From Phycisphaerae bacterium (GTDB lineage: Bacteria > Planctomycetota > Phycisphaerae > UBA1845 > Fen-1342), in assembly GCA_030428945.1 (NCBI GenBank), contig JAUIEC010000003.1, positions 434,001 to 498,000 on the forward strand: a DNA stretch of 64,000 nucleotides, written 5' to 3'. The position numbers were made by a program, and so were the translations under genes. Below the pieces are notes generated by a model, which was not told the origin of the DNA, searched no databases, and saw only the letters and a program-made list of their open reading frames with translations. The stretch's first letter is position 1. Every line of letters starts with the position of its first letter. Shown here piece after piece: positions 14,059 through 64,000 of the stretch.

Positions 14059-15381
14059 TCAGCCGGACCGCAGGAGACTTCCGACCGAAGCCATAGGCAA
14101 ATCAGGTCCGGCGTTATCCGGCTTTGAGAATAGTTCGCCGCGCACCCGATCCAGAACCGCCTTGCTCTCTTGGTCCAAGTTGCGACTGCGCTGCTCGCTT
14201 CGGCGAAGTTCATGCCACCAGTCTGGAACGCCACGCCCTCCCTGGGCGGCCTGCTGTACGTTGTTCACGAGGTACGCCATCGGGCTCTGCTTGAAGAACT
14301 CAGGGCCGAAACGCTCCTGAGCCGCCTGGGTGATGTCGGCCCACTCCTGCAGCAGGTGACGACGGTACTTACGCATCAGGTGTCTGGTAGCCGGGGCCTC
14401 GAAGCCGAGCTGCGTCAGCAACTCGAACAGCGGCTGATCAATGTCTCGCAGCCGCCCAGATTCCCTGGCGATGCGACGGAAGTAGTTACCCTTCTTCATC
14501 GAGACGGTGTATCTCCCGACGCCGTCTTTCGAAATCGCTGCATCCGAAATGACCTCGTGCTTGGCCAGAGTCGATAGGCAGCGCTGGACTTTGGCTTTCA
14601 TGTCCCGCACCGCCAGCGTCGGCGACAGCCCGAGCAAGTTAACCGCGGTGTGTCCGAGATCAAGCTTGGGCATGCGTCGTCCATGCCCGATCGTCTTGCT
14701 CGCCAAGAGGAAGAGTCGTCGGCTGGCGGGATCGAGGTCGCGATACAAACGCAGATCAAAACGCAGCTGCCCGCCTGCCGCGGTCACCATTTCAATGAAA
14801 ACCGGGTCCCAGGCGATCCGCCAGGCGCGGTTGGATGCGGCACTCATCGGAAGGCTGTAGCTCAGGAATCCGAAACTGACGCGACGATGTTCCTGACGGA
14901 CCGGGTCATAGAACCCATCGCTCAGATATGTGACGGCTGAAAGTCGCCGAAGTGCCGCTGCAAAGCCTGCATACTGGCGACCTCCACGCTTGGTTCTGCT
15001 GTCGATCATGTCCAGCCGCCGCAGACACCAATGCGGCGTCGCCCGGAGCTCGCCAGCGTGCTCGCCTTGCGCCAAGGTGAGTGCGAGTAGTCCCCATAGG
15101 TAGACCTCGTCATGTGCGGACAATCCAAACGGGCAAACGACTCGTGACAACGAACGTTGCCGCCTGCCATCCTGGGCCGTGAATTCGAATGTGGCCCGAT
15201 GCACCAGGTTTTCCACGAGACTGCTGCGCGGGTCGAGCGGACACATCGCGTGCTCAACGAGTGTTAGTTGTCCGATTCCGTTGCGTATGGGCTTCCTGCG
15301 TGCCACTTCTTCTCCGATTGTCTTCCCTTCCATGCTGCTAGCATGCTTCGCGGGGTCCCCGAAAGGCCTCGTGATAGCCAC
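14059..15381 (-). CDS. repA: Plasmid replication initiator protein (RepA-like)
   Basis: 440 residues from the GTG at 15381; an ATG at 15333 (MEGKTIGEE) is an alternative start. The body resembles RPA/RepA-type initiators of large plasmids: LSAHDEVYLWGLLALTL, WCLRRLDMIDSRTKRGG, FGFLSYSLP, WDPVFIEMVTAAGGQLRFDL and FLLASKTIGHGRRMPKLDLG. Tandem winged-helix domains are expected for this group. It would bind origin iterons and load the host replication machinery. It is divergent from parA across 136 bases, the usual rep/par arrangement in plasmids. The specific family name is from memory of its pattern; a plasmid initiator role is well supported by context. Confidence 0.82.
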   Translation of the reverse strand: MAITRPFGDPAKHASSMEGKTIGEEVARRKPIRNGIGQLTLVEHAMCPLDPRSSLVENLVHRATFEFTAQDGRRQRSLSRVVCPFGLSAHDEVYLWGLLALTLAQGEHAGELRATPHWCLRRLDMIDSRTKRGGRQYAGFAAALRRLSAVTYLSDGFYDPVRQEHRRVSFGFLSYSLPMSAASNRAWRIAWDPVFIEMVTAAGGQLRFDLRLYRDLDPASRRLFLLASKTIGHGRRMPKLDLGHTAVNLLGLSPTLAVRDMKAKVQRCLSTLAKHEVISDAAISKDGVGRYTVSMKKGNYFRRIARESGRLRDIDQPLFELLTQLGFEAPATRHLMRKYRRHLLQEWADITQAAQERFGPEFFKQSPMAYLVNNVQQAAQGGRGVPDWWHELRRSEQRSRNLDQESKAVLDRVRGELFSKPDNAGPDLPMASVGSLLRSG

Positions 15382-15491
15382 AGCACCAGGGTGACCGATG
15401 CCCCCATCGTACTCACGCTTCGATTTCTGCTTGCCGACATGGAATAGCCGTGCAAGGGTTATCGAAATGAAATCGCCGGCTTAAGGCCGAA

Positions 15492-15517: not shown

Positions 15518-16321
15518 ATGACAACCATCAGCTTCATCAACCAAAAAGGCGGCTGCGGAAAGAGTTCTGCCTGCGTCCACCTGGCAGGCGCGTTCGCAGC
15601 GCGCGGGCAGTCTGTGCTGTTGATTGACGCCGACCCCCAGGGATCGGTGACCCAGGCATTCATCGGCTCTGCCGAATTCGAACAGCTGCCCCGACGAAGC
15701 ACACTAGCGGCAATGTTCGACCCAGACATGTTCGTATCCGATCCGCTCTCCGTACTGCAGTTGACCAAGATCCCGGGGGTTGCGCTCGTGCCAGCCAACC
15801 AGGAACTGGCCCAGTTCAATGCGCCAACGCCCGAGGCGGCAGGGTTGGAACAGTTCGTGATCAGAGACATCGTGGACGCGGCGTCCGAGTACGACTTCAT
15901 TCTCATTGACTGCCCACCAAATCTCTATGCCTGCAGCTGGTCGGCGATGATCGCATCCGACTACGTGGTCATTCCGGTGCCGCCTGAGGACTTCGGTACC
16001 CAGGGGCTGCGGGCAGTACATCAGGCTGTTGAGCGAGCACAGATGCTCAACCCGGGGCTCCGACGGCTTGGGCACCTCATTGCGCGGCGCGACAACCGCC
16101 TGGTCATTCATCGCGCCTACGAGAGACGGCTGCGGGAGCTTTACCAAGCACTGGTTCTGGAAACGGTGATCCCTGAGGCGAATGCCTTCAAGGTGGCACT
16201 TGCGGCTCGACAGCCGGTTGAGTTTCACGCCCCGCGCTCGGACGCGGCCAGGAGTATGCGGCAGCTCGCCAACGAGATCTCCACCCATATCGAAGTTCGT
16301 CGGCGCAAACAGGTGGCCTAG
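15518..16321 (+). CDS. parA: ParA-type partition ATPase
   Basis: 267 residues. The deviant Walker A KGGCGKS occupies residues 10-16, with the signature Lys at position 10. LLIDADPQGS is the A' motif and DFILIDCPPNL the Walker B region. There is no N-terminal HTH extension, so this is the short, type Ib or chromosomal-like form. It would form ATP-dependent gradients on the nucleoid that position the replicon, working with ParB. The stop at 16319-16321 is two bases from the parB start, so the two form an operon. It lies divergent from the replication initiator gene. Confidence 0.95.
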   Translation: MTTISFINQKGGCGKSSACVHLAGAFAARGQSVLLIDADPQGSVTQAFIGSAEFEQLPRRSTLAAMFDPDMFVSDPLSVLQLTKIPGVALVPANQELAQFNAPTPEAAGLEQFVIRDIVDAASEYDFILIDCPPNLYACSWSAMIASDYVVIPVPPEDFGTQGLRAVHQAVERAQMLNPGLRRLGHLIARRDNRLVIHRAYERRLRELYQALVLETVIPEANAFKVALAARQPVEFHAPRSDAARSMRQLANEISTHIEVRRRKQVA

Positions 16322-16322
16322 C

Positions 16323-17228
16323 ATGGCAAGCACCCGCAATGCACTCGCCCGCCTGACCAGTAACCTGGACGAATCGATTGGACACCGGTCGAGCCCAGAG
16401 ACACCGAACCTGAGCCCGGTGCCAAATCCGAAGGATGTTGGGCGACGGCCGATTCGCAGCTTCGGAAGTCTCCAGGTGGATCAGATTGTTGCCGACCCGG
16501 ACCAGCCGCGCACGGAGTTCGACCACGATGCGATCGAGCGGCTGGCCGCCAGCATTCGCGAGACAGGACAGATCTCGCCGATTCACGTACGCTGGTCGGC
16601 GAAGCTTGAGAAATGGGTCATCATCTCAGGCGAACGCCGTTGGCGTGCCACCGTGCAAGCGGGGCTTCAGACGATCCAATGTCACTTCCACGACCAGCCA
16701 CTTTCGCCAACCCAGATCCTTGAACAGCAACTGATTGAGAATCTGCTGCGCGAAGACCTGAAGCCAATTGAACAAGCGCGGGCGTTCCGCGCATTGATGG
16801 ACTTAAACGAATGGACGGCACGCCAGGTGGCCGAGGCGCTGCACGTTCAGCCTTCGACGGTCAGCCGAGCTCTCGCTCTTTTGCGCCTGCCGAAAGAAGT
16901 ACGCGCCCAGGTGGACAGCGGGGCGCTCTCCGCTCGTTCTGCCTATGAGCTTTCCAAGCTCGAGGATCCCGAGGAGCACCACGAGCTTGCCCGGCAGATT
17001 CACCAGGACAAGCTAACGCACCAGGAGGCTGCGCAGGTCGTTCGCGAGCGTCGCCGAAAACCCGCCAAGCCGCGTCGTGGCGTCAAGCTGGCCTTCGTGA
17101 TTGAACCAGATTGGCGCGTGACCGTAACAGCACCGCGCCGGGCCTCCTATCGCGAGGTGAAGCAGGTCGTTGAACAGGTGCTTGAGGAGGTCGCGCAGCG
17201 CCTCAACAACAACGTTCAGTTGCTCTGA
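16323..17228 (+). CDS. parB: ParB-type partition protein
   Basis: 301 residues from the ATG at 16323, with AGGTGG upstream inside the end of parA. A flexible N-terminus (residues 1-50) leads to the ParB-N CTPase domain: IVADPDQPRTEF, SIRETGQISPIHVR, ISGERRWRAT and QQLIENLLREDLKPIEQA. The arginine-rich GERRWRA box is intact. A KorB-like HTH follows (ARQVAEALHVQPSTVSRALALL). The C-terminal region holds a basic linker and a putative dimerisation helix. It loads at parS and stimulates ParA. The parS site is not certain; see the repeats at 13819-13909 and the palindrome at 15492. Confidence 0.95.
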   Translation: MASTRNALARLTSNLDESIGHRSSPETPNLSPVPNPKDVGRRPIRSFGSLQVDQIVADPDQPRTEFDHDAIERLAASIRETGQISPIHVRWSAKLEKWVIISGERRWRATVQAGLQTIQCHFHDQPLSPTQILEQQLIENLLREDLKPIEQARAFRALMDLNEWTARQVAEALHVQPSTVSRALALLRLPKEVRAQVDSGALSARSAYELSKLEDPEEHHELARQIHQDKLTHQEAAQVVRERRRKPAKPRRGVKLAFVIEPDWRVTVTAPRRASYREVKQVVEQVLEEVAQRLNNNVQLL

Positions 17229-31860: not shown

Positions 31861-32273
31861 TTCAGCTCCCAGCTGACCAGGTCAGCCGCGCCTCCCGTCC
31901 CCCCTTCAAGTCCGTCAGCGCCATAGCAAATCAGGTCGTAGGTACCGTTCAGGCCGGGATAGACGTACTCATAAGGCTTGTTCCACGGATCTTTCAGATC
32001 CCCGCCGCGCAGCAGACCATCCGGGTGGGCATCGGTGCGCTCGGTCAGCACTGCGAGACCCTCTTCGTTGCTCGGGTAGCGGTCCTGCTCAAGGAAAAAG
32101 AGCTCCAAGGCTGACATGATCTGGCTCAGTTCCTGCTTTGCCGCATTCTGCTTTCCGGAAACGAGGTAGTCGCGTACGGCGACGGTGGCCGTGGTGGCCA
32201 GAACCCCCAGAATCACCACAACCACCATGATCTCGACCAGTGTCATGCCTCTGCGCGTTGTCAGGTTGTTCAC
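31857..32273 (-). CDS. gspG: Type II secretion major pseudopilin G
   Basis: 138 residues. The leader ends RRG and the helix starts MTLVEIMVVVVILGVLATTA, with Glu at +5. The characteristic block follows: ALELFFLEQDRYPSNEEGLAVL, then LKDPWNKPYEYVYPG and YDLICYGADGLEGG. The calcium-site region is present, though the C-terminus is slightly shorter than in Proteobacteria. It is the main subunit of the pseudopilus that pushes substrates through the secretin. Confidence 0.95.
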   Translation of the reverse strand: MNNLTTRRGMTLVEIMVVVVILGVLATTATVAVRDYLVSGKQNAAKQELSQIMSALELFFLEQDRYPSNEEGLAVLTERTDAHPDGLLRGGDLKDPWNKPYEYVYPGLNGTYDLICYGADGLEGGTGGAADLVSWELK

Positions 32274-35022: not shown

Positions 35023-35028
35023 GATCAG

Positions 35029-37134: not shown

Positions 37135-37135
37135 T

Positions 37136-38182
37136 TCATTTGCCCCGGGCCGTTTGATCGCCCCGCGGTTCCACGACCGCGCCTCGGATCGGAATGACCG
37201 CCTTGACTTCAACATCACCCTCAAGGATCTGGACTTGCATGCGGCCTTCGATTCGGCCGAGGACTCGGCCGGCAGCAGAAAACCGAATCGACGTCTCCCC
37301 TGGAGATCGGCGCACTTCGAGCAGGCTCAAGTCGTCGTTGCCTCGAAGTGACACACGACCGATTCGCGAGGTTGTACCGTGGATGATGCTGAAGCCTTGT
37401 CGCTCGACAGTTCCGAACGACACCTGCCCAAAGTCGATCAACTGGTCTTCTGATACCGTATCAGCAGTTGCCGTTGCAAAGATCGGCAGGCGGATCCGCG
37501 GCACCTCAACCGATGTGGTCGTAACCCAGACCGTTGGTCGAAATGCGCCGGACTCAACCGCCTGCTGAAGAAGCACCTGCACGCGTCCCGGCTCACCTGC
37601 CGCGACGCGACTGGACGTTACGGTACATTCCAGACGTGGATCATCGGGTTCCGCTGCGAGAATCTCGAAGCCGGCATCTTCGATGGTGTGCACGCCGACA
37701 TTGGCGACTACCGGCGTGTGACCGTCGCCCCTGAAGATACCCAGCGAGGCAAAGTCCGGTTCGCAGAACACCTCCGGAACCACACGATACCGAACTGGCA
37801 CGCTGACCCGGATCCCTGGCTCCGTGGTCAGCCAGACGGAACGTCGGACTTCGTCGATGTAGTCGCAGGTTTCAAGCCGAATGTGCCAGATCCCTGATGC
37901 GCCCGGCTCCACCTGCAACTCGGGGACCTGACCGCTGAGGCAGACGCAGTCCGAACCCGTACCACAAACGCGAACCGCCTCCGAACTGGTGTTGCTGAAG
38001 CGGATTGTACGTTCAAGCTCAGCAAAAGGCCGCACCTGCCCGAAGTCGATCGCAGCCGTGGTTGGCACCAGTTTTGAGTCCGCGACCCCCACGGGAGCGA
38101 GCAGGCCCAGGAAAAATCCGAGTACTGCGGCCTTCGCGGCGGGTTGCAGACCCCGTCTCGTTTCGCTATTCATAGATTTCAA
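37136..38182 (-). CDS. DUF1573 exported protein in the secretion operon
   Basis: 348 residues (the ATG at 38173 is an alternative). A signal peptide covers roughly residues 4-36, ending in GVADS. ATTAAIDFGQVRPFAELERTIRFSNTS is an Ig-like DUF1573 domain, repeated around SEDQLIDFGQVSFGTVERQGFS. Two Cys pairs (VCGTGSDCVCL) lie in the first. DUF1573 proteins are abundant in Planctomycetes and Bacteroidetes and are thought to be envelope Ig-like modules. It ends one base before the gspD start, so it is co-transcribed; a role in secretion or substrate binding is inferred from position only. Confidence 0.82.
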   Translation of the reverse strand: MKSMNSETRRGLQPAAKAAVLGFFLGLLAPVGVADSKLVPTTAAIDFGQVRPFAELERTIRFSNTSSEAVRVCGTGSDCVCLSGQVPELQVEPGASGIWHIRLETCDYIDEVRRSVWLTTEPGIRVSVPVRYRVVPEVFCEPDFASLGIFRGDGHTPVVANVGVHTIEDAGFEILAAEPDDPRLECTVTSSRVAAGEPGRVQVLLQQAVESGAFRPTVWVTTTSVEVPRIRLPIFATATADTVSEDQLIDFGQVSFGTVERQGFSIIHGTTSRIGRVSLRGNDDLSLLEVRRSPGETSIRFSAAGRVLGRIEGRMQVQILEGDVEVKAVIPIRGAVVEPRGDQTARGK

Positions 38183-50895: not shown

Positions 50896-51564
50896 TCATG
50901 ATCCTTGGCTGGCAGCTGTGCCGGGCGAGGACGCTGGCAAGGTCTGGAACGGTCGCGCGATCCGGCGGTTGCGTCGTACGGCCGTGACAGGCACCTCGGA
51001 GAAGCCGAGTCCCCGCCGCACGATGTTTGCAGATCTCAGGATGCTTGCGAGTTGCCGCCTGACGCCGGCGTAGGGTTCGTAGCGCAGCCCGCGAATCCAC
51101 TCGAACAATTCGCGCGGATCTGCGTTATTGGCGAGGCGATGAGCGTGAACTCTCAGTCGCTGATACTCTGACCTGTCGATTAGCGCAACGGCATGGCCTT
51201 TTCCCGTCTGATCGCGTTTGAAACTGACGGAGTAGCCCGCGAATCGTATGGGCCTACGCCTCACGTCATTGATCATCCTGGATTCGCGGTCAAAGAACAC
51301 GTGCCTGCCATGCGTCGCGATCAACACGAAGAATCGGTCGAATCGCAGATACTGAACATTGGCGAGTCCGAGCTGTCTGCGACGGTACCGGGTCCACCGA
51401 GAGACATCGATCGCGTATAGGTCGATGAGCTTCCGATCGACCTCCTCCGGATCCTTGCGGCCCGGAACTCGGCCTGTCACGTAAAACCAGTAACCGTGCT
51501 GTACATACGCAACGGTCAGCTGCTGAATGAACCCCGCGATCGAAGTCGCTTCGCACCGGTACAT
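50896..51564 (-). CDS. Planctomycete-type conserved hypothetical protein
   Basis: 222 residues; the ATG at 51564 is supported by AGGAGGAG directly upstream. The pattern MYRCEATSIAGFIQQLTVAY, GYWFYVTGRVP, DRKLIDLYAIDVSRWTR, NVQYLRFDRFFVLIATHG and IRFAGYSVSF recurs in a family I associate with planctomycetes, where many paralogues sit near mobile-element genes. The function is unknown. The basic, aromatic composition and the RRRQLG segment suggest nucleic-acid contact, but no catalytic motif is apparent. The C-terminal tail (VRRNRRIARPFQT) is variable. It is the second gene of a leftward pair with 51648-51950. Confidence 0.78.
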   Translation of the reverse strand: MYRCEATSIAGFIQQLTVAYVQHGYWFYVTGRVPGRKDPEEVDRKLIDLYAIDVSRWTRYRRRQLGLANVQYLRFDRFFVLIATHGRHVFFDRESRMINDVRRRPIRFAGYSVSFKRDQTGKGHAVALIDRSEYQRLRVHAHRLANNADPRELFEWIRGLRYEPYAGVRRQLASILRSANIVRRGLGFSEVPVTAVRRNRRIARPFQTLPASSPGTAASQGS

Positions 51565-51647
51565 ACTCCTCCTGCTGGGAAGACGGGGTTGTTCTTCGGC
51601 ACAACCCCAAAGCCGTTCGTAGTGAGAACCTCCTGCGAAGCCCAGTG

Positions 51648-51950
51648 TCAGTAGTCCTCGGGCAGCAATACAGTCGTTGCTGACCGGTCCGCCTCTGTGA
51701 TCACCCAGAAACGCGTGTCGCCGTCGCGATACGCCGAAAACAGCCGACCGGTATGAACCAGAGCCCATTCGTTGGCCGCCCAGTCGTGGGCGTCCAATTC
51801 GCCCCAGTCGCCGGTCGCGTGCCTTACGATTGCGCGCAGCACGCACTGCTCGCTGAGGTGTTCGGCGGCATTCCTGGTGATCACAAGGCGGCCCAGCGAG
51901 AACCGACGCGGTCCTCGCGAGCCGCCCTGCACATTTGCATTCGCGTTCAC
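51648..51950 (-). CDS. Planctomycete-type small conserved protein
   Basis: 100 residues from a GTG at 51950, with AAAGGAG upstream. The pattern LGRLVITRNAAEHL, RHATGDWGELDAHDWAANEWAL and FSAYRDGDTRFWVITEADRSATTVLLPEDY is a small family I recall on planctomycete plasmids and integrative elements, often next to recombination or defence genes. The C-terminal WVITEADRS block is the conserved core. The function is unknown. Likely transcribed with the following gene, 83 bases on. It supports both the lineage and the mobile nature of the region. Confidence 0.8.
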   Translation of the reverse strand: MNANANVQGGSRGPRRFSLGRLVITRNAAEHLSEQCVLRAIVRHATGDWGELDAHDWAANEWALVHTGRLFSAYRDGDTRFWVITEADRSATTVLLPEDY

Positions 51951-53159: not shown

Positions 53160-53477
53160 TCACTCTTCCGCGCCATTGCTTACGCGATCAGCACCCGACA
53201 TGTGACGTACGTGCAGGATGCGGACGGTGTCCGTGCGAATCGTGAAGATGATGCGATGGGACTTGAAGATCAGTTGGCGTAGCTCCTGTTGCGGGAACCG
53301 ATCGTTCTCTCGTGCGAGCGGGCATCGTTCTGGCATGGAGGTGAGTGATGCCACGGCGTTGGACAGCGCAATGTACCATTCGGCTGCCGTCTCTGGTTTT
53401 CCCTGCGATGCAATGTACTCGGCCGCGTCAAGAGCATCCTGGCGAGCCTTTGGATGAAAGACAACCCGATACGTCAA
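53160..53477 (-). CDS. RelE/ParE-family toxin
   Basis: 105 residues. VVFHPKARQDALDAAEYIAS, AAEWYIALSNAVASLTSMPERC, and FKSHRIIFTIRTDTVRILHVRH are the three standard blocks of RelE/ParE toxins. Members either cleave mRNA at the ribosome or poison gyrase; the sequence does not tell which. The ATG overlaps the antitoxin stop by 4 bases, the standard antitoxin-toxin coupling. It would stabilise the element in its host. Confidence 0.93.
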   Translation of the reverse strand: MTYRVVFHPKARQDALDAAEYIASQGKPETAAEWYIALSNAVASLTSMPERCPLARENDRFPQQELRQLIFKSHRIIFTIRTDTVRILHVRHMSGADRVSNGAEE

Positions 53478-53764
53478 CGCTTGCGCCGGAGCAGGTTCCG
53501 GACTTCTTCAAGCACCGCTTCGCTCGGGATGTCGGCATTCGTGGGACGGTTCGGATTCAGGCGGTCCCTGAGTGTGTGGTCGGTATCCCATTCATCGATC
53601 AGCATTAAGAGACGCTGGTACGCCGCAGCGTCCTGAACGACCACCTTGGCTCGACCGTTGACGGTCAAAACCTCGGGCTTGCCCGTCCGCTGCAGCCGGC
53701 TCACGTGCGTCTTGTGCTCTCTCAAGAAGCGCGACAGAGGATGTATGTCCAGGAGGTCGATCAT
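53474..53764 (-). CDS. Phd/YefM-family antitoxin
   Basis: 96 residues from the ATG at 53764; the frame is open further but the preceding part is unlike coding sequence. IHPLSRFLREHKTHVSRLQ, then GKPEVLTVNGRAKVVVQDAAAYQRLL, is the Phd DNA-binding fold. The C-terminal part (DIPSEAVLEEVRNLLRRKR) would wrap the toxin. A perfect inverted repeat 19 bases upstream is its likely operator. Confidence 0.93.
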   Translation of the reverse strand: MIDLLDIHPLSRFLREHKTHVSRLQRTGKPEVLTVNGRAKVVVQDAAAYQRLLMLIDEWDTDHTLRDRLNPNRPTNADIPSEAVLEEVRNLLRRKR

Positions 53765-53782
53765 TGGGTTCCGTGGTTTGAA

Positions 53783-53797
53783 AATTGTCTGACAATT
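53783..53797 (-). promoter_or_regulatory. Operator of the toxin-antitoxin operon
   Basis: AATTGTC-T-GACAATT is a perfect 7+1+7 palindrome located 19 bases before the antitoxin start on the minus strand. It is the typical size and place for autorepression by a Phd/YefM protein. Confidence 0.65.
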
Positions 53798-54060
53798 CCA
53801 TGCTATCACATCAGACCGTGGGCGCGCAAGCTCCGGCGCGGTGGCGCGCGTCGTTCGGGCAGCCGAACGCAGCGAGTTGTTGCAGCCGCAGAGTGAGCGT
53901 GGGAGAACATAGCCAAGCTGGCTGAGTCCAGCGTTCAAGGCGGTCCTCGCCACACGCTCTTTCTCCGTGAACAACTGCGTAGACACGTCCGTTCCTTGCT
54001 GTCGGGCCGAGTTTCGGCGTGACGGCAGGGTGCGAGTGAAGACTTCTTGAGGAGGTTCTG

Positions 54061-55434
54061 ATGAACGTCTACGAGTATGAGAGAATGATGGCGGGGCTCA
54101 ATCACGCCCAGCGAACGGCGGTCGAGAGCAATAGCGGTCCGCTTCTGGTACTCGCTGGTGCAGGGACCGGAAAGACGCGGGTGATCATGATGCGGATTGC
54201 GCACTTGATCGAACAAGGCGTGCCGCCTGGAGCCATCCTCGCCCTGACGTTCACACGACGTGCCGCTCAGGAGATGCTGGGACGGATGGGGACCATGCTG
54301 GGTGATTGTTCGCACGGAGTGACGATCTGTACGTTTCACTCGTTTGGACTACGACTGATCAAGGAGTGGTCGCAGAGATCTGGCTTCACACGGCCTCCAA
54401 GGCTGCTTCGTGAGGGCGAGCAACAACTGATCGTGCACGGGATTCTTCGGCGACTCGACAGTCCCTTGAGCCTTGATCGGTGTTGCACAAAGATTGCGTG
54501 GTTCAAGAACGCGGGCGTCGGTCCCGACGAGATGCGCCGGATCGCGGTGACGCGGTTCGACCGTCTGCTAGCCGAAGTATACGCGAGGTATCAGGCCACA
54601 CTTGCTGGCAGCCACGCAATGGACATGGACGACATGGTCCTACGGCCGGTTGAGATCCTCCGGTCGAACGAGACGCTGCGGTACGACTGCCAAGATCGGT
54701 GGCGGTTCATCCTGGTCGACGAATACCAAGACACGAACGGCGGCCAGCACCATCTCGTTCGATGTCTTGAGGGTCGGGAGCAGAACGTTTGCGTGGTGGG
54801 AGATGACGATCAGTCCATCTATGGGTTCCGGGGAGCAGATGTGAAGCGGGTGCTCGGGTTCCCACGGGAGTTCGCAGGAGCGCAGGTGGTCACGCTTGAG
54901 ACCAACTACCGCTCTTATAGTCCCATCATTCGTCTGGGAAACGAGGTCATTGCGAAGGCGAAACGCCGGTTTGGCAAACGGCTGATGGCCGCTCGCGGAA
55001 TCGGCCCGGATGTCGTGTGCCGAGAGTTCGAGGAGGCCACCCAGGAATTGAGATATCTGGCGCAGTGTGTTCACCGGCTACCGTGCCCAAGGAACCACAT
55101 TGCAATCCTGGTGCGAGTGAACGAGTACAGAGCCCTTGTTCGGCATGCACTCCGGCAATCGTGTGTTTCGTGCTCTGGGCGGGACGGCGTGGCGGTGCTG
55201 ACGCTTCACCAATCGAAGGGCCTGGAGTTTCCGGTGGTGTTTCTTCCGTGCATGGAAGAGGGATTGCTTCCCCATTTCAATTCGCTGGGTGACGCGAAGG
55301 CCATCGAGGAAGAACGTCGGCTATTGTACGTTGGGATTACCCGGGCCCAGGACCGATTGTGGGTCACATTCAGCAGGGAGCGAGATGGCTACGCTCGCAA
55401 GCCGAGCCGGTTTCTTGAAGCCGTTCATCGCTGA
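54061..55434 (+). CDS. Compact UvrD/Rep-family superfamily 1 helicase
   Basis: 457 residues from an ATG with GAGGAGG upstream. NHAQRTAV (Q-motif), Walker A AGAGTGKT at 32-39, LTFTRRAAQEM, TFHSFG, Walker B DEYQDT at 220-225, GDDDQSIYGFRGA, LETNYRS, LTLHQSKGLEFPVVF and LLYVGITRAQDRL are all intact. PcrA/UvrD proteins have about 700 residues; this one is short mainly between motifs IV and V, where the 2B domain should lie. Loss of that autoinhibitory domain suggests it is regulated by a partner. It is followed by a kinase gene and stands at the head of the 54-59 kb island. GajB of Gabija is also a short UvrD-like helicase, but no GajA is present. Confidence 0.93.
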   Translation: MNVYEYERMMAGLNHAQRTAVESNSGPLLVLAGAGTGKTRVIMMRIAHLIEQGVPPGAILALTFTRRAAQEMLGRMGTMLGDCSHGVTICTFHSFGLRLIKEWSQRSGFTRPPRLLREGEQQLIVHGILRRLDSPLSLDRCCTKIAWFKNAGVGPDEMRRIAVTRFDRLLAEVYARYQATLAGSHAMDMDDMVLRPVEILRSNETLRYDCQDRWRFILVDEYQDTNGGQHHLVRCLEGREQNVCVVGDDDQSIYGFRGADVKRVLGFPREFAGAQVVTLETNYRSYSPIIRLGNEVIAKAKRRFGKRLMAARGIGPDVVCREFEEATQELRYLAQCVHRLPCPRNHIAILVRVNEYRALVRHALRQSCVSCSGRDGVAVLTLHQSKGLEFPVVFLPCMEEGLLPHFNSLGDAKAIEEERRLLYVGITRAQDRLWVTFSRERDGYARKPSRFLEAVHR

Positions 55435-55644
55435 CGTTTCCGCGTTGAGGAGGGATAGGCCCCGCGGCAAGGTTCGTGCGTCTTCACACGCGTCTTGCCC
55501 GGCTTCTGGTTGGCTGGGGACCGGATTCTGTTTCCTGTTTGCGCATTCCACGTTATCAAAGACATCCACAGACTGCAGATACGGTGTGGCGCACGGTGGT
55601 GTCCGACAAGCGGATCCGGAACAGCAAAGGGGGATGACCCTCAG

Positions 55645-56589
55645 ATGCCAGATCGGAAAGTGATTCAGGTTCGAGGCCGTAGGTACCGCGTGCTTGAGAA
55701 GTTGAGCGGCAGGTCGAGCGAATGCTATCGGGCGGTCGACGAAAGGGCCGGCCGAAGAGGGGAGCACCGCGCGATTCACATCTATCGCCGAAACCAGCGC
55801 GCGGTCGAATATGTGAAGGTGCTCAGGCGAGCGGGCTCGAACAACTCCAACCTGCCGGGCATCCTCGAAAGCTCGTGGGACGCAGAGGAGATTGTGCTGG
55901 TCCTGCCGTGGATCAAGGGCCCCACACTTGAGCAGCAACTGGCTCGGGCCAGGCGTGACCCGCGCGGTCTCAGCAGCTCCCAGGCGATTAGGCTCTTTCG
56001 TGGGCTTGCCCACGGACTGTGTCATTTCAACACACACCGCAATCTGATACATGGCGATCTGCACCCGGGCAACGTCGTGGTGATCCAACCATCGCGGTTG
56101 GTCATGATCGACTACGGAAGCAGTTGGTTTGCCGAGCGTACGACACGACGCGAGGCGCGAGATGGCGGGACCGAGCGGTACGCTGCGCCTGAGCTCTTGC
56201 AGGCGGAGACGCAGGTTGATTTCAGGGCGGATCAGTTTTCTGCGACGGTGATGTGGTACGAGATGCTGACAACGAGAATCCCATACGAAGGCATCGGCGG
56301 CCGTGCAGGGCTACAAGAATACCGAGAGTGGCGCGAGAGCTATGTCGCTCCGAGTCGCTTGCAGCAGGGCCGCGAACGTATTCCAGCCAGCGTCTGGAAG
56401 CAGGTTGATCAGGCGGTGCGAACTGGCCTGCAGCTTGATCCAGATCGCCGTTACCCAAGCCGGAGCAAGTGGCTCAAGGCGCTGGAAGACATCAAGTTTG
56501 AGGTGGAACGAACCCAACGGCTTTCGCCGGCTGTGACGATGGTGCTTCGGGCCGGAAGCTGGATTGGTTCGAAGCTGGGGCGTCAGTAA
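55645..56589 (+). CDS. Ser/Thr protein kinase-like protein, atypical N-lobe
   Basis: 314 residues from the ATG at 55645, with GGGGG 13-17 bases upstream. The C-lobe is kinase-like and intact: LIHGDLHPGN (136-143, catalytic D138, N143), IDYG in place of DFG (D156), YAAPEL (180-184) and DQFSATVMWYEMLT. The N-lobe is unusual: the VAIK position reads RAIHIY, giving His45 where the ATP-anchoring Lys should be, and the glycine loop (LSGRSSECY) is poor. It may bind ATP differently or need a partner. It runs convergently with the Cas4-like gene (7-base overlap) and follows the helicase by 210 bases. Confidence 0.85.
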   Translation: MPDRKVIQVRGRRYRVLEKLSGRSSECYRAVDERAGRRGEHRAIHIYRRNQRAVEYVKVLRRAGSNNSNLPGILESSWDAEEIVLVLPWIKGPTLEQQLARARRDPRGLSSSQAIRLFRGLAHGLCHFNTHRNLIHGDLHPGNVVVIQPSRLVMIDYGSSWFAERTTRREARDGGTERYAAPELLQAETQVDFRADQFSATVMWYEMLTTRIPYEGIGGRAGLQEYREWRESYVAPSRLQQGRERIPASVWKQVDQAVRTGLQLDPDRRYPSRSKWLKALEDIKFEVERTQRLSPAVTMVLRAGSWIGSKLGRQ

Positions 56590-57824
56590 TCTGAGTCATC
56601 ATCGTCGTCATACCAGTCGTCGTCCTCTGGGTCGCCGAACAGTTCTTTCTCGAAGGCTCGGTCGTGAGGGGGGCACCAAAGGAAACGGTCTCCACACAGA
56701 CTGTGGTACGTGCGCTTGTCGCCGCCGCAGCTGCCGTACAGCTGCACTTCTGCGCCTCGCAATTGGTGCAGGGAGGAACTGTCGCGGAATACCCGTGGGT
56801 AACCGTGGGGACATTTGCCGCATCGGCCTGTCGTTCTCGGCGGGGCCGGCTCTCGTCCCAGTTGGAGGTGCGCCTTGATGGTGGACCGCGCCCGGAAGAG
56901 TCCGTCCTTAAGAGCCTGATCGGTCTTCCGGCCAATGGGGACCGCGAACCCCTCGAACGTGTGGCCGAACAGGATGATCCCGTACGGGCACTCGCCGGCC
57001 TCGCTTGTCTGCAACAGTTGGCAATAGGCAGCAATCCTGGCGAAGTGCTGAGGGTACAAACGCCTGCCGTTGGGGCCGTCGCACTTGCCCTTGCGAAAGA
57101 CCGGGATCCGCAGCGATCCGTGTCGGATTACGCGCCAGGGCCTGCCGGACAGCCGCAGCTCGGAGTCCTGGAGCAGGTCCTTGTCATGATAGGAAATCGA
57201 ATCGAAACCGGCTTTGAGCAAAGACCACCAATTGACCTCGACGGGGCGGTCACGGACGTCCGGAATGACGGGCTCAGCGGATTCCGCTGCGAGCCGACAT
57301 CGATTGAGTTCCGCGACGCGATCGATGGCGCGCAGCGTTGGGTCGAACACCCAAGGCAGGAGTCTGGCGAACACAAACACCAGCAGCGGCGGGGTTGCAA
57401 TCATGCACCCGAAGAACATCAACATTGGGGCAAAGAGACTCAATCTCGTGGCCGCATCAACTGCTTGGCCGAACATAAGCCAGAGTTCTTCTCGACTCAA
57501 AAAACTCCATCCAAGGGCAGTCGCCAAAAGTGCCGGTCGCCAGGCGGCTTTCCACCAACTCTGGAACTCGGCGTTCAACGCGCGGTTGATCGCATCCATG
57601 TTGTAACGGGGGACGTAATCCAGAGGCGTTGGACGAGCGGGTTGTTCTTCGCCGCTGTCATCGGTTTGTTGTTCGTAGAGGATGAGCCCGGCTCTCGGGC
57701 AGAACATGAACTCCGTCATTACGTGAACGCCAACCCAGGGGATGCCATCGTCAGGCAGCGTTTGCTGACGCTCTGGAGGGCGTCCTCCGACTAAGCGAAG
57801 TTGGGGTTGTTGTCCCGTATCCAT
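56583..57824 (-). CDS. Membrane-anchored Cas4/PD-(D/E)xK-like protein with altered active site
   Basis: 413 residues from the ATG at 57824. Residues 36-45, MTEFMFCPRA, match the N-terminal Cas4/DUF83 signature, including its iron-sulfur Cys. A hydrophobic hairpin then interrupts the fold (about 95-157, with LMFFGCMIATPPLLVFVFARLL). The nuclease core resumes: SGRPWRVIRHGSLRIPVFRKGK (224-247), then AAYCQLLQTSEAGECPYGIILFG. In active enzymes the first block reads GRPD and the second PVExK; here Asp is Trp and the acidic residue is Phe, so hydrolysis is unlikely. Only two of the three C-terminal Cys residues are evident (CGKC, 335-338). The tail is strongly acidic (Asp-rich, 399-412). Confidence 0.65.
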   Translation of the reverse strand: MDTGQQPQLRLVGGRPPERQQTLPDDGIPWVGVHVMTEFMFCPRAGLILYEQQTDDSGEEQPARPTPLDYVPRYNMDAINRALNAEFQSWWKAAWRPALLATALGWSFLSREELWLMFGQAVDAATRLSLFAPMLMFFGCMIATPPLLVFVFARLLPWVFDPTLRAIDRVAELNRCRLAAESAEPVIPDVRDRPVEVNWWSLLKAGFDSISYHDKDLLQDSELRLSGRPWRVIRHGSLRIPVFRKGKCDGPNGRRLYPQHFARIAAYCQLLQTSEAGECPYGIILFGHTFEGFAVPIGRKTDQALKDGLFRARSTIKAHLQLGREPAPPRTTGRCGKCPHGYPRVFRDSSSLHQLRGAEVQLYGSCGGDKRTYHSLCGDRFLWCPPHDRAFEKELFGDPEDDDWYDDDDDSDY

Positions 57825-57910: not shown

Positions 57911-58960
57911 CTATGCGGTCAAGGCCTCCACCAGCGCCTGGCCGGTGGGGGGACGCTTCTTCGCAAGTCCGAGGCACTTCGACGCGAGGGTTTTTGTGCC
58001 CTTGTTGAGCTTTGAAGCACCGATCATCGTTCTGGCGTCGTCCGGTCCTTGCGGGCGTTTACCTCCAACCGCGTGAGCTAGCATCATTGCCCAACTGTAC
58101 ACATCGCAGCTCGGATCGGGGTCGCCGGTTTCGACCTCTGGGGCTCGATAGACATCCTGACCCAGTTCGTCCAGGTCCGTGACCGTGGGTCGCCCTTGGG
58201 TAAGTCGGGCGAGTTCAAAGTCGGTCAGGACAGCGCGTGGGCCGATCAACACAGATGCGGGTCGCAAACCGCGCAGGATCACTTCATTCGCGTGCAACGC
58301 CTCCAATGCGTGAGCGATATCAAGGAAGAAACTGGCGATCGAGTCGATTGGCTGCGGCGAGCGAATCCACTCGTCCAAAGCTCGGTGGTCATCCAGGAAC
58401 TCATCGGCGACCCACCAGAATCCCTGTCTGCGGTCGTCAGCGAACGCACCCAAGTTCCTTGTGATATTTGGATGCCCGTTCAACCGATCGCAAACCTCCT
58501 TGTGTCGCTGAATGTACTTCTCGAGGTGGCTCCGTTCCTGATCTGCGAGTCGGCTGCTTAAGTCGTATTGCTTCATGCGCGCCACCGGGAATTCGGCGTG
58601 TTCTCGAGTCCCCCTGAAGACACGCCATTGAACACCATTAGCCGCTTCCATCATCTTTGTTGGGTCTAGGAGCGTCCAGCCGCCGATGCGAGTCGGCCAC
58701 GGCGGATTGCCCGACGGTTGCTCTTCTTCCAGCATGGCAATGGGCACTTCGAGCGCGTTCGCAACGAGGCGGGCGGTCTTTAGCGAGGCGCGTTCTCCAC
58801 CCAACCATCCAGTGATTGCACGATGACTCACTCTCGCCGCCTCCGCCAACTCTTCGGGCGTCATGTGTGCGTTCTTTAGACACCGCCGGAGTCCGTCCAT
58901 TCGCACACTGCTTTGGTGACGCTCGACCCCAGACTTGCCATTGTTTTGCCGTTGACTCAC
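57911..58960 (-). CDS. HTH-containing protein pseudokinase
   Basis: 349 residues from a GTG at 58960 with GGGAG upstream. Residues 21-78 form an XRE-type HTH (LRRCLKNAHMTPEELAEAARVSHRAITGWL). A kinase fold follows: VARMK with Lys130, a helix-C Glu (about 143-147), and LRGLRPAS where active kinases have HRDLKPxN, so the catalytic Asp is Gly231 and the metal-binding Asn is Ser236. TDFE replaces DFG (D247), YRAPE is intact (271-275) and CDVYSWAMML is normal. It likely binds ATP and DNA but does not phosphorylate. It is divergent from the sigma factor gene with 66 bases between starts, so it may regulate it. Confidence 0.85.
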   Translation of the reverse strand: MSQRQNNGKSGVERHQSSVRMDGLRRCLKNAHMTPEELAEAARVSHRAITGWLGGERASLKTARLVANALEVPIAMLEEEQPSGNPPWPTRIGGWTLLDPTKMMEAANGVQWRVFRGTREHAEFPVARMKQYDLSSRLADQERSHLEKYIQRHKEVCDRLNGHPNITRNLGAFADDRRQGFWWVADEFLDDHRALDEWIRSPQPIDSIASFFLDIAHALEALHANEVILRGLRPASVLIGPRAVLTDFELARLTQGRPTVTDLDELGQDVYRAPEVETGDPDPSCDVYSWAMMLAHAVGGKRPQGPDDARTMIGASKLNKGTKTLASKCLGLAKKRPPTGQALVEALTA

Positions 58961-59026
58961 GTCGATCTCCCATGCTGCCACCCCGAGGATGGGGACATCA
59001 AGTGGACAGGTCAAGGGAGACCAATC

Positions 59027-59584
59027 GTGAGCAAGAAAAGAGGTAAGAAACTGGCCAGAAATGCCTCGCCGTCCAAGCCGCCCGGGGGACCCGCACATTC
59101 GCTCGCCCCATGTTCCAGGGCGGTTGAACCGCTGGTCCGCCGAATCGTGCGCATGCGTCTCAGGGGAAACCGAGCGAAGAGCGATTTCGCGGACGATGTT
59201 GTTCAGGAAACGCTTATTCGTTTGTGGCGCTGGCCCCCGAGAGTTGAGACCCCGCAAGAGCTTGAACGCTGGGTTCACAGGGTGGCCAGAAGCGCTATCA
59301 GCGATGTCAGCAAGTCGGCAAGATCCAATGCGGGTTGGATAGATGACTACGAGCCAAGCGAGGACCGGCGTCGCCAGCGATTGGACCCCCGAATCAACGC
59401 CATGAAGGAGAGTCTTGAAGAGCTTCCTATGCGCAGCCAGCGGATCCTCGAACTACACCACATGCACAGTCGCAGCTGTGCCGAGGTTGCAGCCGAACTT
59501 CGTATCACCGTCTCCGCGGTCTGGGCGGATGGAAGTCGGTCTCGAGGCAAACTCCGTGTCATGATTGAGGAACGCATGCGATGA
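59027..59584 (+). CDS. ECF-type RNA polymerase sigma factor
   Basis: 185 residues from a GTG at 59027 with AGGGAG upstream. A basic N-terminal stretch (KKRGKKLARN) precedes region 2, in which SDFADDVVQETLIRLWRW is the conserved 2.2-2.3 block. Region 4 contains LEELPMRSQRILELHHMHSRS and the HTH CAEVAAELRITVSAVWADGS. Region 3 is missing, as in ECF types. It is translationally coupled to the traF-like gene (ATGA), so its targets may include transfer genes. The divergent HTH-pseudokinase is a likely partner or regulator. Confidence 0.9.
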   Translation: MSKKRGKKLARNASPSKPPGGPAHSLAPCSRAVEPLVRRIVRMRLRGNRAKSDFADDVVQETLIRLWRWPPRVETPQELERWVHRVARSAISDVSKSARSNAGWIDDYEPSEDRRRQRLDPRINAMKESLEELPMRSQRILELHHMHSRSCAEVAAELRITVSAVWADGSRSRGKLRVMIEERMR

Positions 59585-60096
59585 TCCGTTCTCGAACCGT
59601 ACGCACTTTGTGGGCATTTGGGGGCTGTATTGCGCTGCTTACGATCTGGCCGCGGTCGACCCAGCGCCCGTTCGTCGTGCTGAACAGATCGCAGAGTTTA
59701 TCGTGCGGGCTGTACATCCGAACAAGCGACCCGCCGGTAAGAGGAAGCTTGATCGAGTTTCGCAATCCAACGCCAAACCGGCCGTGGATCGACGCTCACA
59801 TGTTTGTGCATGCGAACGGCGCGTACTTTCTCAAGCCGATCGAGGCCGGGCCGGGGGACCATGTCGACTCGCTCGGTTCGTGGCTCTTCGTTGATGGTGA
59901 GAAGCGGGCACCGATGACGGCCCTGGATACCACGGGGCGATGTCTCCCCGTTTGGCGCGCCCGTCGCCACCTCGCCGCCGACGAGTTTTTTGTGCTCTCG
60001 ACGCGCGTCCCGAACAGCCTGGACAGCCGCCACTTCGGTCCGATCAAGCGGGCTGAGATCGAGTGCGTGCGCCGCCCGCTTTGGGTCTGGGAATGA
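59581..60096 (+). CDS. traF: TraF-type conjugative S26 signal peptidase
   Basis: 171 residues. One N-terminal membrane helix (LWAFGGCIALLTIW) anchors it. NRSQSLSCGLY (35-45) carries the catalytic Ser39 of the family, and AYFLKPIEAGPGD (81-93) the catalytic Lys85. The box FFVLSTRVPNSLDSRHFGPI is the conserved GD-SxDSRxxG end. TraF of plasmid RP4 matures the pilin or activates transfer proteins. It is coupled to the sigma factor gene and lies in front of the relaxase, as in many conjugative plasmids and integrative elements. Confidence 0.9.
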   Translation: MIRSRTVRTLWAFGGCIALLTIWPRSTQRPFVVLNRSQSLSCGLYIRTSDPPVRGSLIEFRNPTPNRPWIDAHMFVHANGAYFLKPIEAGPGDHVDSLGSWLFVDGEKRAPMTALDTTGRCLPVWRARRHLAADEFFVLSTRVPNSLDSRHFGPIKRAEIECVRRPLWVWE

Positions 60097-60572: not shown

Positions 60573-62579
60573 GTGTCTACAACGCCTGATCCAGATCGTG
60601 AACCACGGCGGATCGCCCGGCTCGGCCGTGACGGCGGTGGGCAGCGTTTGCCACGAGGAATGCCGCGCGCCGTGCGGAGGACGGGCGCTGGAACGGCTAC
60701 GTTTGGTCACCGCGCCCATGGGCAGCGCGTCGTCGTGAAGGTGCACGTTGCACGCCACAGATCGGCTACGGCCGGACGCGATTCGCTGAGGCGGCATGCG
60801 AGTTACCTCGCGCGGGACGGGACCGCCCTGGGTGAGGGCAGGCCCGCTTCGTACGACGCCAAGCGTGAGGGAATCGATCCTCTACTGGAGACTCAAGAAT
60901 GGTCGACGGATCGGCACCATTTCCGGGTGATCCTGTCGCCCGAAAACGGCGGGGAGATTGACGATTTGCGGGCCTATTCGCGCCAGGTCATGAAGCGCAT
61001 GGAGCGCGACCTCGAGACCCGGCTGACGTGGGTTGCCGTCAATCACTTCAACACCGACAACCCGCATGTGCATGTCCTCATTCGGGGCCGGAATGACCGC
61101 GACAGAGACCTCGTCATTGCGCGCGATTACATTTCGCACGGAATCCGGTCTCGGGCGTCTGAGGTTGCCACCGAGATGTTGGGTGAGCGCACCGTCAGTC
61201 AGGCTCGCACCGCGCTGGACCGACAGGTGCAGGCGGAGCGTTGGACCAACCTGGATCGCATCATTCAGCGGCTGGCTCAGCAACGAGGCAGCGCGACGCA
61301 TTTCAGCATGGAGAACGCCCGGCCGAGTCAACACGGACCACTTCAGAAAGCCCATCTCGCCGGGCGGATGGAGCTGCTTACGTCTCTCGGTCTGGCTCAG
61401 GAAACGACGTCCGGGGACCCGAGATTCTTGAAGAGTCCACGTAGCTGGATCATCGCAACAGATGTCGAACAGCGTCTGCGACAGCTCGGCGATCGCAACG
61501 ACATCATCAAACAAATGCACGCTCAGCTTGGTCGGTCTGAAGCGCTTGTAATTGCTCGCCGCATGGAGTCGCTGCAAGCGCCCTCACTCGAGGCCACTGA
61601 ACCGAAGTCTCTCCGCGGCGTCGTGGTGGCGAAGGGGGCAGTGGATGAACTCACGGATGCCCGATTCCTCGTTGTGCGCGATCATGCAGGTGATCGTTAC
61701 ACGCGGGTCTGGGCGAGTACTGCCTACGATGCGATTCAGGTGGGTGGTGTCGTCGAGCTCGGGCGTCGAGATCGACAGCGCTGGCGGGCGATCGAGGAGA
61801 TTCAGCGGGTAGCAGCTGCAGACATCAGTGGGCATTACGTCGTCAGCCATCATCGCGAGCTGTTGCGCACTTCTGGCAAGCTAACCGTTGAGGGCGTTGA
61901 GCGTCGGCTGCGCGGGTTCCACAATCGCCTAAAGTCTCTTGCCAGGCAGCGGAACTCGGGGGTCGTGCAGGACGGTATCGGTTTCAGGATCGAGCACGAG
62001 AAACTGCAAGAGCATGCTTGCAGGATCGGACGTTGGCCGGATCTGCACGTGGTCGCGGCCCATTCAATCGAGAACCAGACGAACGCGCGTGCCTACACGT
62101 GGCTCGACCGCCAACTCGTGCGAGCCAGTATCAAGCATCTCCCGGCAACAGACCTGACGAACAACGGTCGGGTGCGAGAGGCACTTGATCGCCGGGCAGT
62201 CTGGCTGGTTGAACAAGGACTGGCGCGTCGGATGCCAGAGGGCGAGTGGCCTCCGGTTCGGTTGCAACCCGGTGCGGCGGGACATCTGCGGGCGACGGAA
62301 CTGTCTCGTGTCTTGGCGGAGTGTAAGGAATCAAGGAGCCGGTCCGTCCATTTACTGAGGACCGGCCAGTCGATCACGGGCGTGTACCGTCGGCATGCGT
62401 ACCTGCACGCAGGCGGGTTCGCTGTGATCGATGGACCGACCGCAACGGTCGTTGTTCCCGTGACAAGGGAACCCTGGCCAGACACAGGAGCGGTCGTCAC
62501 CGCACACCGAGTCCGCGATCGATACGTGCGATTCGAACTTTCCGGCCGATCCATCGGCAAGGGAGGACTAACAAAGTGA
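60573..62579 (+). CDS. VirD2-type conjugative relaxase with DUF3363-like region
   Basis: 668 residues from a GTG with GGAG upstream. RRHASYLARDGT and FRVILSPENGGEIDDLRAY open the relaxase domain; the three-His metal site is VNHFNTDNPHVHVLIRG (His158, His165, His167). A candidate nucleophile Tyr lies in RHASYLARD. DYISHGIRSRASE is also conserved in VirD2/TraI relatives. The long C-terminal half (TARFLVVRDHAG, VAAHSIENQTNARAYTWLDR) matches the DUF3363 region found on ICE and plasmid relaxases. It nicks the transfer origin and pilots the strand. It overlaps the coupling protein gene by 4 bases. Confidence 0.93.
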   Translation: MSTTPDPDREPRRIARLGRDGGGQRLPRGMPRAVRRTGAGTATFGHRAHGQRVVVKVHVARHRSATAGRDSLRRHASYLARDGTALGEGRPASYDAKREGIDPLLETQEWSTDRHHFRVILSPENGGEIDDLRAYSRQVMKRMERDLETRLTWVAVNHFNTDNPHVHVLIRGRNDRDRDLVIARDYISHGIRSRASEVATEMLGERTVSQARTALDRQVQAERWTNLDRIIQRLAQQRGSATHFSMENARPSQHGPLQKAHLAGRMELLTSLGLAQETTSGDPRFLKSPRSWIIATDVEQRLRQLGDRNDIIKQMHAQLGRSEALVIARRMESLQAPSLEATEPKSLRGVVVAKGAVDELTDARFLVVRDHAGDRYTRVWASTAYDAIQVGGVVELGRRDRQRWRAIEEIQRVAAADISGHYVVSHHRELLRTSGKLTVEGVERRLRGFHNRLKSLARQRNSGVVQDGIGFRIEHEKLQEHACRIGRWPDLHVVAAHSIENQTNARAYTWLDRQLVRASIKHLPATDLTNNGRVREALDRRAVWLVEQGLARRMPEGEWPPVRLQPGAAGHLRATELSRVLAECKESRSRSVHLLRTGQSITGVYRRHAYLHAGGFAVIDGPTATVVVPVTREPWPDTGAVVTAHRVRDRYVRFELSGRSIGKGGLTK

Positions 62580-64000
62580 AACGGACGAGCGCGCTGGCGA
62601 TCGGTTTTGCGTCCCTGTTGGGCGGCTTTTTTGCAGCGACCCAGGTGACCGCAGCCTGCTTCGGGCACACGCACAGTCTCGGTTGGCGGGTGTCCGTCGG
62701 CGGCGTCCAGATTTACCCACCGTGGGCCTACCTGAACTGGGTTGCCCGCTGGGGCGCGACGTACCCCGATGCCTTTCGCGTCGGTACCGCCCTGGCCGCC
62801 GGCGGGCTGTTGGTCGGTATCCTGCCGGTCGCGCTCGTGAGGTCGACTCCGGTAGCTGCTCCGGTTGGCGAACGCGAATGGGCCACGCTAGCGGACATGA
62901 AACGGGCGGGACTCCTGACCGGCCGCGGCGTTGTCGTTGGACGATTCCGGGGCAGATTGCTGACGTTCGATGGGCCGGAGCACCAGCTGGTGGCAGGCGC
63001 GACCCGCTCCGGCAAGGGGGTTGGCCATGTGGTACCGACGCTGCTCAGTTGGCCCGCCAGCGCCTTGGTGTTCGACCCCAAGATCGAGCTGTGGAAGATC
63101 ACGTCTGGCTTTCGATCGACGTTCTCGCATTGTCTCCACTTCAAGCCGACCTCGCTCGAGAGTGTGCGCTACAACCCGCTCTTGGAGGTCCGCAGGGGCT
63201 GTCAGGAAATCCCGGATTGCCAGAACATCTCCGAGATGCTCGTGAATCCTGATGGCTCGAAGCAGCAGTTGGATGTGTGGGATCAGCATGCAGCCCAACT
63301 ATTGACAGCGTTGCAGCTGCACGTGCTCTACACCGAGCCGGACGATCGCAAGCACCTCGGGGTCGTCCGAGAGCTACTTCTTGACGCAGAGGCGACACTA
63401 CGAAACATGGCCCAGACGCCGCACCGGCTCAACGCAGAATCAGGCCTCCCGGAGCCTCATCCAGAGGTCGCTCGGGTTGCGCTCGAGCTGATCAAGCAAG
63501 CGCCGAAGTTTGCGGCCGGCGTTCGGGCGACAGCCCAAGGCTACCTCTCTCTTTTTGCCGACGAGATCGTCTGCCGAAACGTGTCGGTTTCGGATTTCGC
63601 GGCCTCAGATCTCGTCTGCGCCGAGCGCCCGATGACGCTCTATCTCTGCCCAGTGCCAGCGGACGCCGCCCGACTTCGGCCGCTGATGCGGCTCGTCACC
63701 AATCAGATTCTGCGAGCGATGCTGGGGGATATCAGCACCGATAATCGCGGACGACCGAAACGACACCGGTTGCTCGCACTGATCGATGAGCTCCCCGCTC
63801 TCGGCCGCCTCGAATTCTTGACAACGAGCCTACGCCAGATGAGTGGATTTGGAGTCAAGGCACAGCTCGTCGTCCAGTCGTTGAGCGACCTAGCTGAGGT
63901 CTACGGGCCGTACAACACCATCTTGGATAACTGCCACGTGATCGCCGCGTTCGCATGCGCAGATCCGCTGACACAACAGCGCCTCAGCCAAATGACCGGT
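62576..64000 (+). CDS. traG: Type IV coupling protein (TraG/VirD4), truncated by the window end
   Basis: 475 codons are visible from a GTG at 62576, with GGGAGG upstream; the gene continues beyond the window. Two membrane helices lie at about residues 6-28 and 68-88. Walker A GATRSGKG is at 141-148, followed by HVVPTLLSWPASALVFDPKIELW. Walker B-like LIDELPALGRL and the later QLVVQSLSDLAEVYG are standard for TraG. It is the hexameric ATPase that links the relaxase-DNA complex to a type IV secretion channel. Further transfer genes are expected to the right. Confidence 0.95.
   Translation, partial: MKRTSALAIGFASLLGGFFAATQVTAACFGHTHSLGWRVSVGGVQIYPPWAYLNWVARWGATYPDAFRVGTALAAGGLLVGILPVALVRSTPVAAPVGEREWATLADMKRAGLLTGRGVVVGRFRGRLLTFDGPEHQLVAGATRSGKGVGHVVPTLLSWPASALVFDPKIELWKITSGFRSTFSHCLHFKPTSLESVRYNPLLEVRRGCQEIPDCQNISEMLVNPDGSKQQLDVWDQHAAQLLTALQLHVLYTEPDDRKHLGVVRELLLDAEATLRNMAQTPHRLNAESGLPEPHPEVARVALELIKQAPKFAAGVRATAQGYLSLFADEIVCRNVSVSDFAASDLVCAERPMTLYLCPVPADAARLRPLMRLVTNQILRAMLGDISTDNRGRPKRHRLLALIDELPALGRLEFLTTSLRQMSGFGVKAQLVVQSLSDLAEVYGPYNTILDNCHVIAAFACADPLTQQRLSQMTG

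Follow-up and report, generated by a model that had tools for sequence, protein, structure and literature searches.

The Cas4 family (TIGR00372/PF01930) comprises CRISPR-associated as well as solo proteins, and a 2017 survey treated every one of them as an active enzyme (PMC5704561). An inactivated derivative is TP1 of Thermoproteus tenax virus 1, a capsid protein encoded on a mobile element, that is split and has lost the three C-terminal cysteines (PMC4625639). Conjugation, in turn, is repressed on some elements by divergent XRE proteins, i.e., RcoLS20 of plasmid pLS20 and ImmR of ICEBs1 (PMC3814332). The locus described here lies in a 64,000-nucleotide stretch of planctomycete DNA, analysed as a whole and termed the window. 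It is a cassette of three genes, which encode an XRE-HTH pseudokinase (kinase A), a Cas4-like protein (cas4L) and an atypical kinase (kinase B) that is convergent with cas4L.

With the Cas4 family cas4L has in common the FCxR motif, the order of core strands and helices, the G-x-P...PV registers, the four putative Fe-S cysteines and the tyrosine of QxxxY. It differs in the absence of the active-site Asp, Glu and Gln, in a membrane insert that follows the first Cys motif and in the long spacing of the C-terminal CxxC...C (338 to 377), and no cas genes were noticed nearby. The closest intact relatives that were tested come from the same phylum (L035-L038, alignment A6). These Cas4-like proteins of about 167 aa, several per genome in some cases, are apparently membrane-anchored and retain an intact active site (GRPD and PEEWK). 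As in cas4L, a hydrophobic segment precedes the core; unlike cas4L, they have a single N-terminal membrane helix and lack the FCPR motif. TP1 resembles cas4L in that it derives from Cas4, is inactivated and belongs to a mobile element, whereas cas4L is full-length, keeps all the cysteines, has a membrane insert and is accompanied by kinases; no virion genes were noticed in the cassette flanks that were read.

Kinase A is like RcoLS20 and ImmR in that a gene for an HTH regulator is divergent from a transfer operon. In contrast to them, it combines the HTH with a dead kinase domain in one protein and stands in line with a membrane pseudo-Cas4, and no Rap or protease partner was seen at the cassette. 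The defence kinases PD-T4-6, Mads mad6, MkoA, PglW and Stk2 are similar in the kinase domain, with no common architecture or partner genes found. No description of the cassette was found in open-licence papers, and the list of its parts matches no known system; on the explanation favoured below it would be a form of element-encoded, XRE-type control of transfer, which is of a known kind. The cassette marks conjugative elements of planctomycetes that have been little described, and it suggests that pseudo-enzymes control their transfer.

Homology of cas4L to Cas4

The cas4L gene occupies positions 56583..57824 of the minus strand (ATG at 57824, stop at 56583) and encodes 413 aa. The single protein gave no relative in searches of GTDB contigs, plasmids, phages, Pfam and PDB, so profiles were required to find the family, and PDB matches obtained with profiles were dismissed as noise from the membrane segments. 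Similarity to Cas4 is distant, since the window protein alone matches TIGR00372 (the NCBIfam Cas4 model) with E of 0.19 and scores 11.5 bits, where the curated cut-off is 65; with the PADLOC Cas4 model it reaches 0.0013. When the family is considered, TIGR00372 finds 13 of the 29 members at E of 1 or better (best 1.7e-7), and the best match of a member to the PADLOC Cas4 models is 2.2e-9 (Cas4d). Profile-profile comparison (hhalign) of the 29-member alignment, termed A3, gave 8e-6 with a set of true Cas4 proteins (19, all of the same class) and E=2.5e-13 (probability 98%, 115 columns) with the four intact membrane-anchored proteins described above. A tree built from the core places the dead cas4L family on a single branch with support 0.96. 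On these sequence comparisons the homology of cas4L to Cas4 is regarded as firm. The original prediction, made from the letters of the window, had recognised a Cas4 signature and core; the signature, TEFMFCPRAG, is indeed present at residues 37-46 (57687..57716, minus strand), and the family-level values of 1.7e-7 and, versus the intact relatives, 2.5e-13 bear out the rest of that assignment.

Structure models were weak. AlphaFold with four sequences reached a pLDDT of 45 for the full protein and 48 for the core fragment, values at which the models by themselves do not decide the fold. Foldseek with the core model (pLDDT 48) gave no match under 1e-3; most of the top matches were PD-(D/E)xK folds, and they include Cas4 (7mi4, 7mi5 and 8d3l) and ACE1 (9iac), none of them significant.

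Loss of Active-Site Residues and Retention of the Cysteines

The profile-profile register sets W230, F243, K245 and R263 of the window protein against the catalytic Asp, Glu and Lys and the Gln of QxxxY, respectively. Two of these replacements had been proposed beforehand, GRPD having become GRPW and the acid of PVExK having become Phe, and both are seen: G227-R228-P229-W230 at 57135..57146 and P241-V242-F243-R244-K245 at 57090..57104 (both minus strand; profile alignment and 29-member alignment). The profile check of these substitutions found them conserved across all 29 homologues. At the Asp position A3 has 25 Trp, 2 Phe, 1 Tyr and 1 Arg, with Asp in 0/29; at the Glu position there is Phe, Ile, Val, Trp, His or Leu, with Glu again in 0/29. 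The Gln, replaced by Arg in the RIAAY of the window (residues 263-267; 57024..57038, minus strand; same alignments), gives way to Arg or Lys in 28 members and to Phe in one (Gln 0/29). Only the catalytic Lys, K245 in the window, persists in part of the family (9/29). Judged by its residues, cas4L is thus a putative pseudo-nuclease of the Cas4 type that has lost the active-site Asp, Glu and Gln family-wide.

Eight residues are invariant in all members, namely C42, W199, G227, P229, P241, C335, C338 and C377. Among them are the four putative Fe-S cysteines, conserved throughout the family: C42, the first, within the N-terminal motif, and C335, C338 and C377 within residues 335-378 (56691..56822, minus strand). 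The supposed absence of one C-terminal cysteine in the original prediction is therefore not upheld, and a missing third cysteine is ruled out by the 29-member alignment. Other charged residues are conserved as well, i.e., H374 in 27/29 and D379 and R380 in most members. As a whole full-length branch keeps the Fe-S cysteines without the active site, the Cas4 cluster and fold have evidently been kept for a non-cutting purpose, and the branch offers a natural test of the role of the Cas4 Fe-S module without catalysis.

A hydrophobic hairpin that splits the fold had also been suspected, and the stretch concerned, residues about 92-172 (57309..57551, minus strand), is predicted from hydropathy to be a membrane hairpin. 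It occupies one position throughout the family, after the N-terminal Cys motif and ahead of the conserved WW. By hydropathy the first segment is strong in nearly all members, and both segments are over the thresholds in 19/29; in the window's protein the second is under the threshold. The AlphaFold model of the full-length protein has helices at 76-182, with low confidence. If the number of membrane passes is even, C42 would lie on the same face of the membrane as C335/C338/C377, as one Fe-S cluster requires.

Distribution of the Family and Selection

Whole-genome searches with the window protein turned up relatives at 41% (same order) and 38% (elsewhere in the phylum), and together with two more members they make up the search profile. 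In all, the family is present in about 26 of the genomes that were searched. Among 398 genomes from another class of the same phylum, 23 carry full-length cas4L (matches below about 1e-20), compared with 2 of 298 sampled genomes of the window's own class and 1 of 292 genomes of the phylum of the cyanobacterial carrier. The profile found no cas4L in viral contigs, and PLSDB gave no match for two other family members used as queries.

In three close copies (L047, L048 and L049) dN/dS is 0.18-0.25 (cas4L), 0.11-0.13 (kinase A) and 0.16-0.29 (kinase B). These ratios show that the family is under purifying selection and is not decaying. Homologues with intact acidic residues, which could have marked the window's copy as merely decayed, are not found in the family: it forms the one branch described above, and cas4L dN/dS stays at 0.18-0.25.

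The Three-Gene Cassette

Kinase A (57911..58900, minus strand) lies upstream of cas4L on the same strand and consists of an XRE-type HTH, matched by HTH_3 at the N-terminus with 4.7e-7, and a pseudokinase domain in which the HRD Asp is lost and DFE stands for DFG. An alternative upstream in-frame GTG would give a longer ORF, 57911-59278; the ATG at 58900 matches homologues better. The HRD Asp is gone in 28/29 family members and DFG is replaced by DFE or similar in all, for which reason kinase A is very probably inactive as a kinase. Of the 29 loci where it was called, 28 have it in this upstream, same-strand position, frequently with a start overlap. At one locus (L048:4200-7752) two genes split kinase A from cas4L; the close relatives L047 and L049 have the pair side by side.

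Kinase B (55495..56589, plus strand) is convergent with cas4L, the ends of the two ORFs overlapping. Its HGDLHPGN and IDYG are kept, as HGDxxPxN and IDFG are in the family, and the beta3 Lys is not evident in either. By its motifs the protein is an atypical protein kinase, which may or may not be active. It adjoins cas4L convergently in 23/31 loci; some of the remaining loci are contig ends, and kinase B is missing from a few (L044, L055, L060 and L063). Three of these four are the cassette copies of a single genome (G604: L044, L060 and L063), none with a called kinase B and with a more distant coupling protein nearby. In the window a short UvrD-like helicase gene (54061-55434) stands immediately before kinase B. 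It was rejected as a partner of the cassette, as UvrD does not form a recurrent cluster among the other loci.

Transfer Genes and Plasmid-Like Elements

On the other side of kinase A, a 126-bp intergenic region (58901..59026), a candidate operator, separates it from divergent transfer-side genes, all on the plus strand. The first encodes an ECF-type sigma factor (59027..59584, with the GTG at 59027 as its putative start) and is followed by that of an S26 signal-peptidase-like protein of the TraF type (59581..60096). Further on come a relaxase of the RlxS/DUF3363 type (60573..62579) and an IncP-type TraG, i.e., a TraG/VirD4-type coupling protein (62576..64000), that extends beyond the window. 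Across the family kinase A and the gene upstream of it are transcribed divergently in 23/29, and in 13 loci, by cluster label, the coupling protein lies within the divergent run. No operator palindrome was common to the divergent intergenic regions or significant above shuffles.

The recurrent neighbours of the cassette are TraG/TraD-like coupling proteins, Replication-relaxation-like and MarR-like proteins, ParA, ParB and replication-initiator-like proteins. Ten cassette genomes have 12 copies of the planctomycete coupling protein between them, 11 of which are at the cassette; none occurs in 5 genomes that lack the cassette. The window's set (RlxS relaxase, IncP-type TraG, TraF-like peptidase) differs from the planctomycete one, and a MOBF relaxase and an F-type TraD accompany the cassette at the cyanobacterial locus (L008). 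Transfer genes from three different machineries are thus found next to the cassette, which is seen as portable between them.

The window also shares a backbone with cassette-bearing planctomycete elements. A replication-initiator-like protein (cluster c8; 14059..15480, minus strand), whose role is read from its ParAB context, matches theirs with E=5e-146, ParA and ParB (15518..17228, plus strand) belong to the same common backbone, and the matches of the Rep-ParA-ParB set are below 1e-119. The cassette carriers are plasmid-like conjugative elements, mainly of Planctomycetota. This setting and the two-kinase cassette, like the family-wide loss of the QxxxY Gln and the retention of Lys in 9/29, go beyond the original prediction. 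A protein of unknown function (50899-51846 in the window) is common to L006, L052 and L053 (cluster c11) and is a further sign of a common element backbone; the L006 record is titled Alphaproteobacteria, and since the genome collection puts its contig in the window's order, the title is probably wrong. Two more recurrent unknown element proteins (clusters c5 and c10), encoded at L041:3713-6537 and in its counterparts, have no Pfam, NCBIfam or PADLOC match.

Possible Role of the Cassette and Alternative Explanations

We tentatively favour, at rather less than even confidence, the reading that cas4L is the middle part of a membrane-bound switch that controls transfer and is built largely of pseudo-enzymes. 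Kinase A is proposed as its DNA-binding part because its XRE gene is divergent from a transfer operon, as those of RcoLS20 and ImmR are. The HTH-pseudokinase would bind the common intergenic region and repress the divergent transfer operon. The Cas4 domain would face the cytoplasm, given an even number of passes, its four cysteines holding one cluster, and cas4L would either tether the regulator or sense, via DNA (entering or leaving strands) or via redox state. Kinase B would then pass or reset a signal at the HTH-pseudokinase, so releasing transfer. Counted against such a switch are the several kinase A genes that are not divergent from their upstream neighbour, the loci without kinase B, the negative palindrome scan, the missing beta3 Lys motif of kinase B and the low pLDDT of the models. 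A bolder form, which we consider speculative and on balance unlikely, is a pathway in which DNA that crosses the inner membrane is sensed by the membrane-bound Fe-S pseudo-Cas4; its signal would reach, by way of the atypical kinase, the HTH-pseudokinase, which switches the transfer genes. If true, mobile elements would possess signalling of a new class, with DNA sensing wired to kinases and two of the three parts dead enzymes.

The main rival is exclusion or defence, an unlikely reading that still deserves serious weight. The pseudo-Cas4 would detect phage or competing-plasmid DNA at the inner membrane and the kinases would arrest growth or block entry, the element carrying the cassette to protect the host or its own monopoly. 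Mobile elements frequently bear defence genes, and a Cas4-like nuclease limits the transfer or maintenance of RSF1010 in Synechococcus (PMC10653904). Similar general kinase types occur in known systems, the best PADLOC matches being PD-T4-6, mad6 and MkoA, and the T4CP-like protein weakly matches mad8. However, these kinase matches are of the generic kinase-domain kind, and no PADLOC system has this combination; PADLOC 2.0 found no complete known defence system in the cassette, only Cas4-fold and generic kinase matches. Moreover, cargo would not need such tight linkage to the coupling protein and divergence from transfer genes, and with catalytic residues gone in two of the three proteins kinase B is left as the only obvious effector.

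The co-occurrence with the coupling protein would suit a structural part of the transfer apparatus: a membrane-anchored pseudo-Cas4 that keeps the relaxosome, or the strand coming in, at the coupling protein, with the kinase-like proteins as assembly scaffolds or regulators. Cas4-fold proteins bind DNA, and TP1 of TTV1 is an inactive Cas4 turned DNA-binding (PMC4625639). We nevertheless hold this role to be quite improbable, as a dedicated structural part would not readily tolerate relaxase and coupling-protein sets of three unrelated kinds, and the cassette has its own promoter side and HTH protein.

It is also conceivable that the Cas4 domain is still an enzyme, the loss being merely apparent and residues having been recruited from elsewhere in the fold. 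Catalytic residues have moved in some PD-(D/E)xK enzymes, and H374, D379 and R380 would be at hand. Yet Asp, Glu and Gln are jointly gone in 29/29, and the Trp or hydrophobic replacements are expected to block metal binding, which makes continued catalysis very unlikely. Finally, functionless decay of the gene in this genome, to which its scarcity in the window's class (2/298) might point, has next to no probability: against it stand the open frame, the identical substitutions family-wide, the intact cassette order and dN/dS of about 0.2 in relatives, and for the family decay is refuted by conservation.

Other Features of the Window

Three further gene groups were seen outside the cassette. 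A ParE-type toxin (2.5e-13), with an antitoxin-like ORF upstream, is encoded at 53160-53986. Type II secretion/pseudopilus genes, recognised by eye, lie at 27399-37224, between the Rep-Par and the transfer genes. A type I restriction-modification operon (HsdM, HsdS and HsdR), also recognised by eye, spans 4489-11469 and has an unrelated gene, 7233-8267, inside it.
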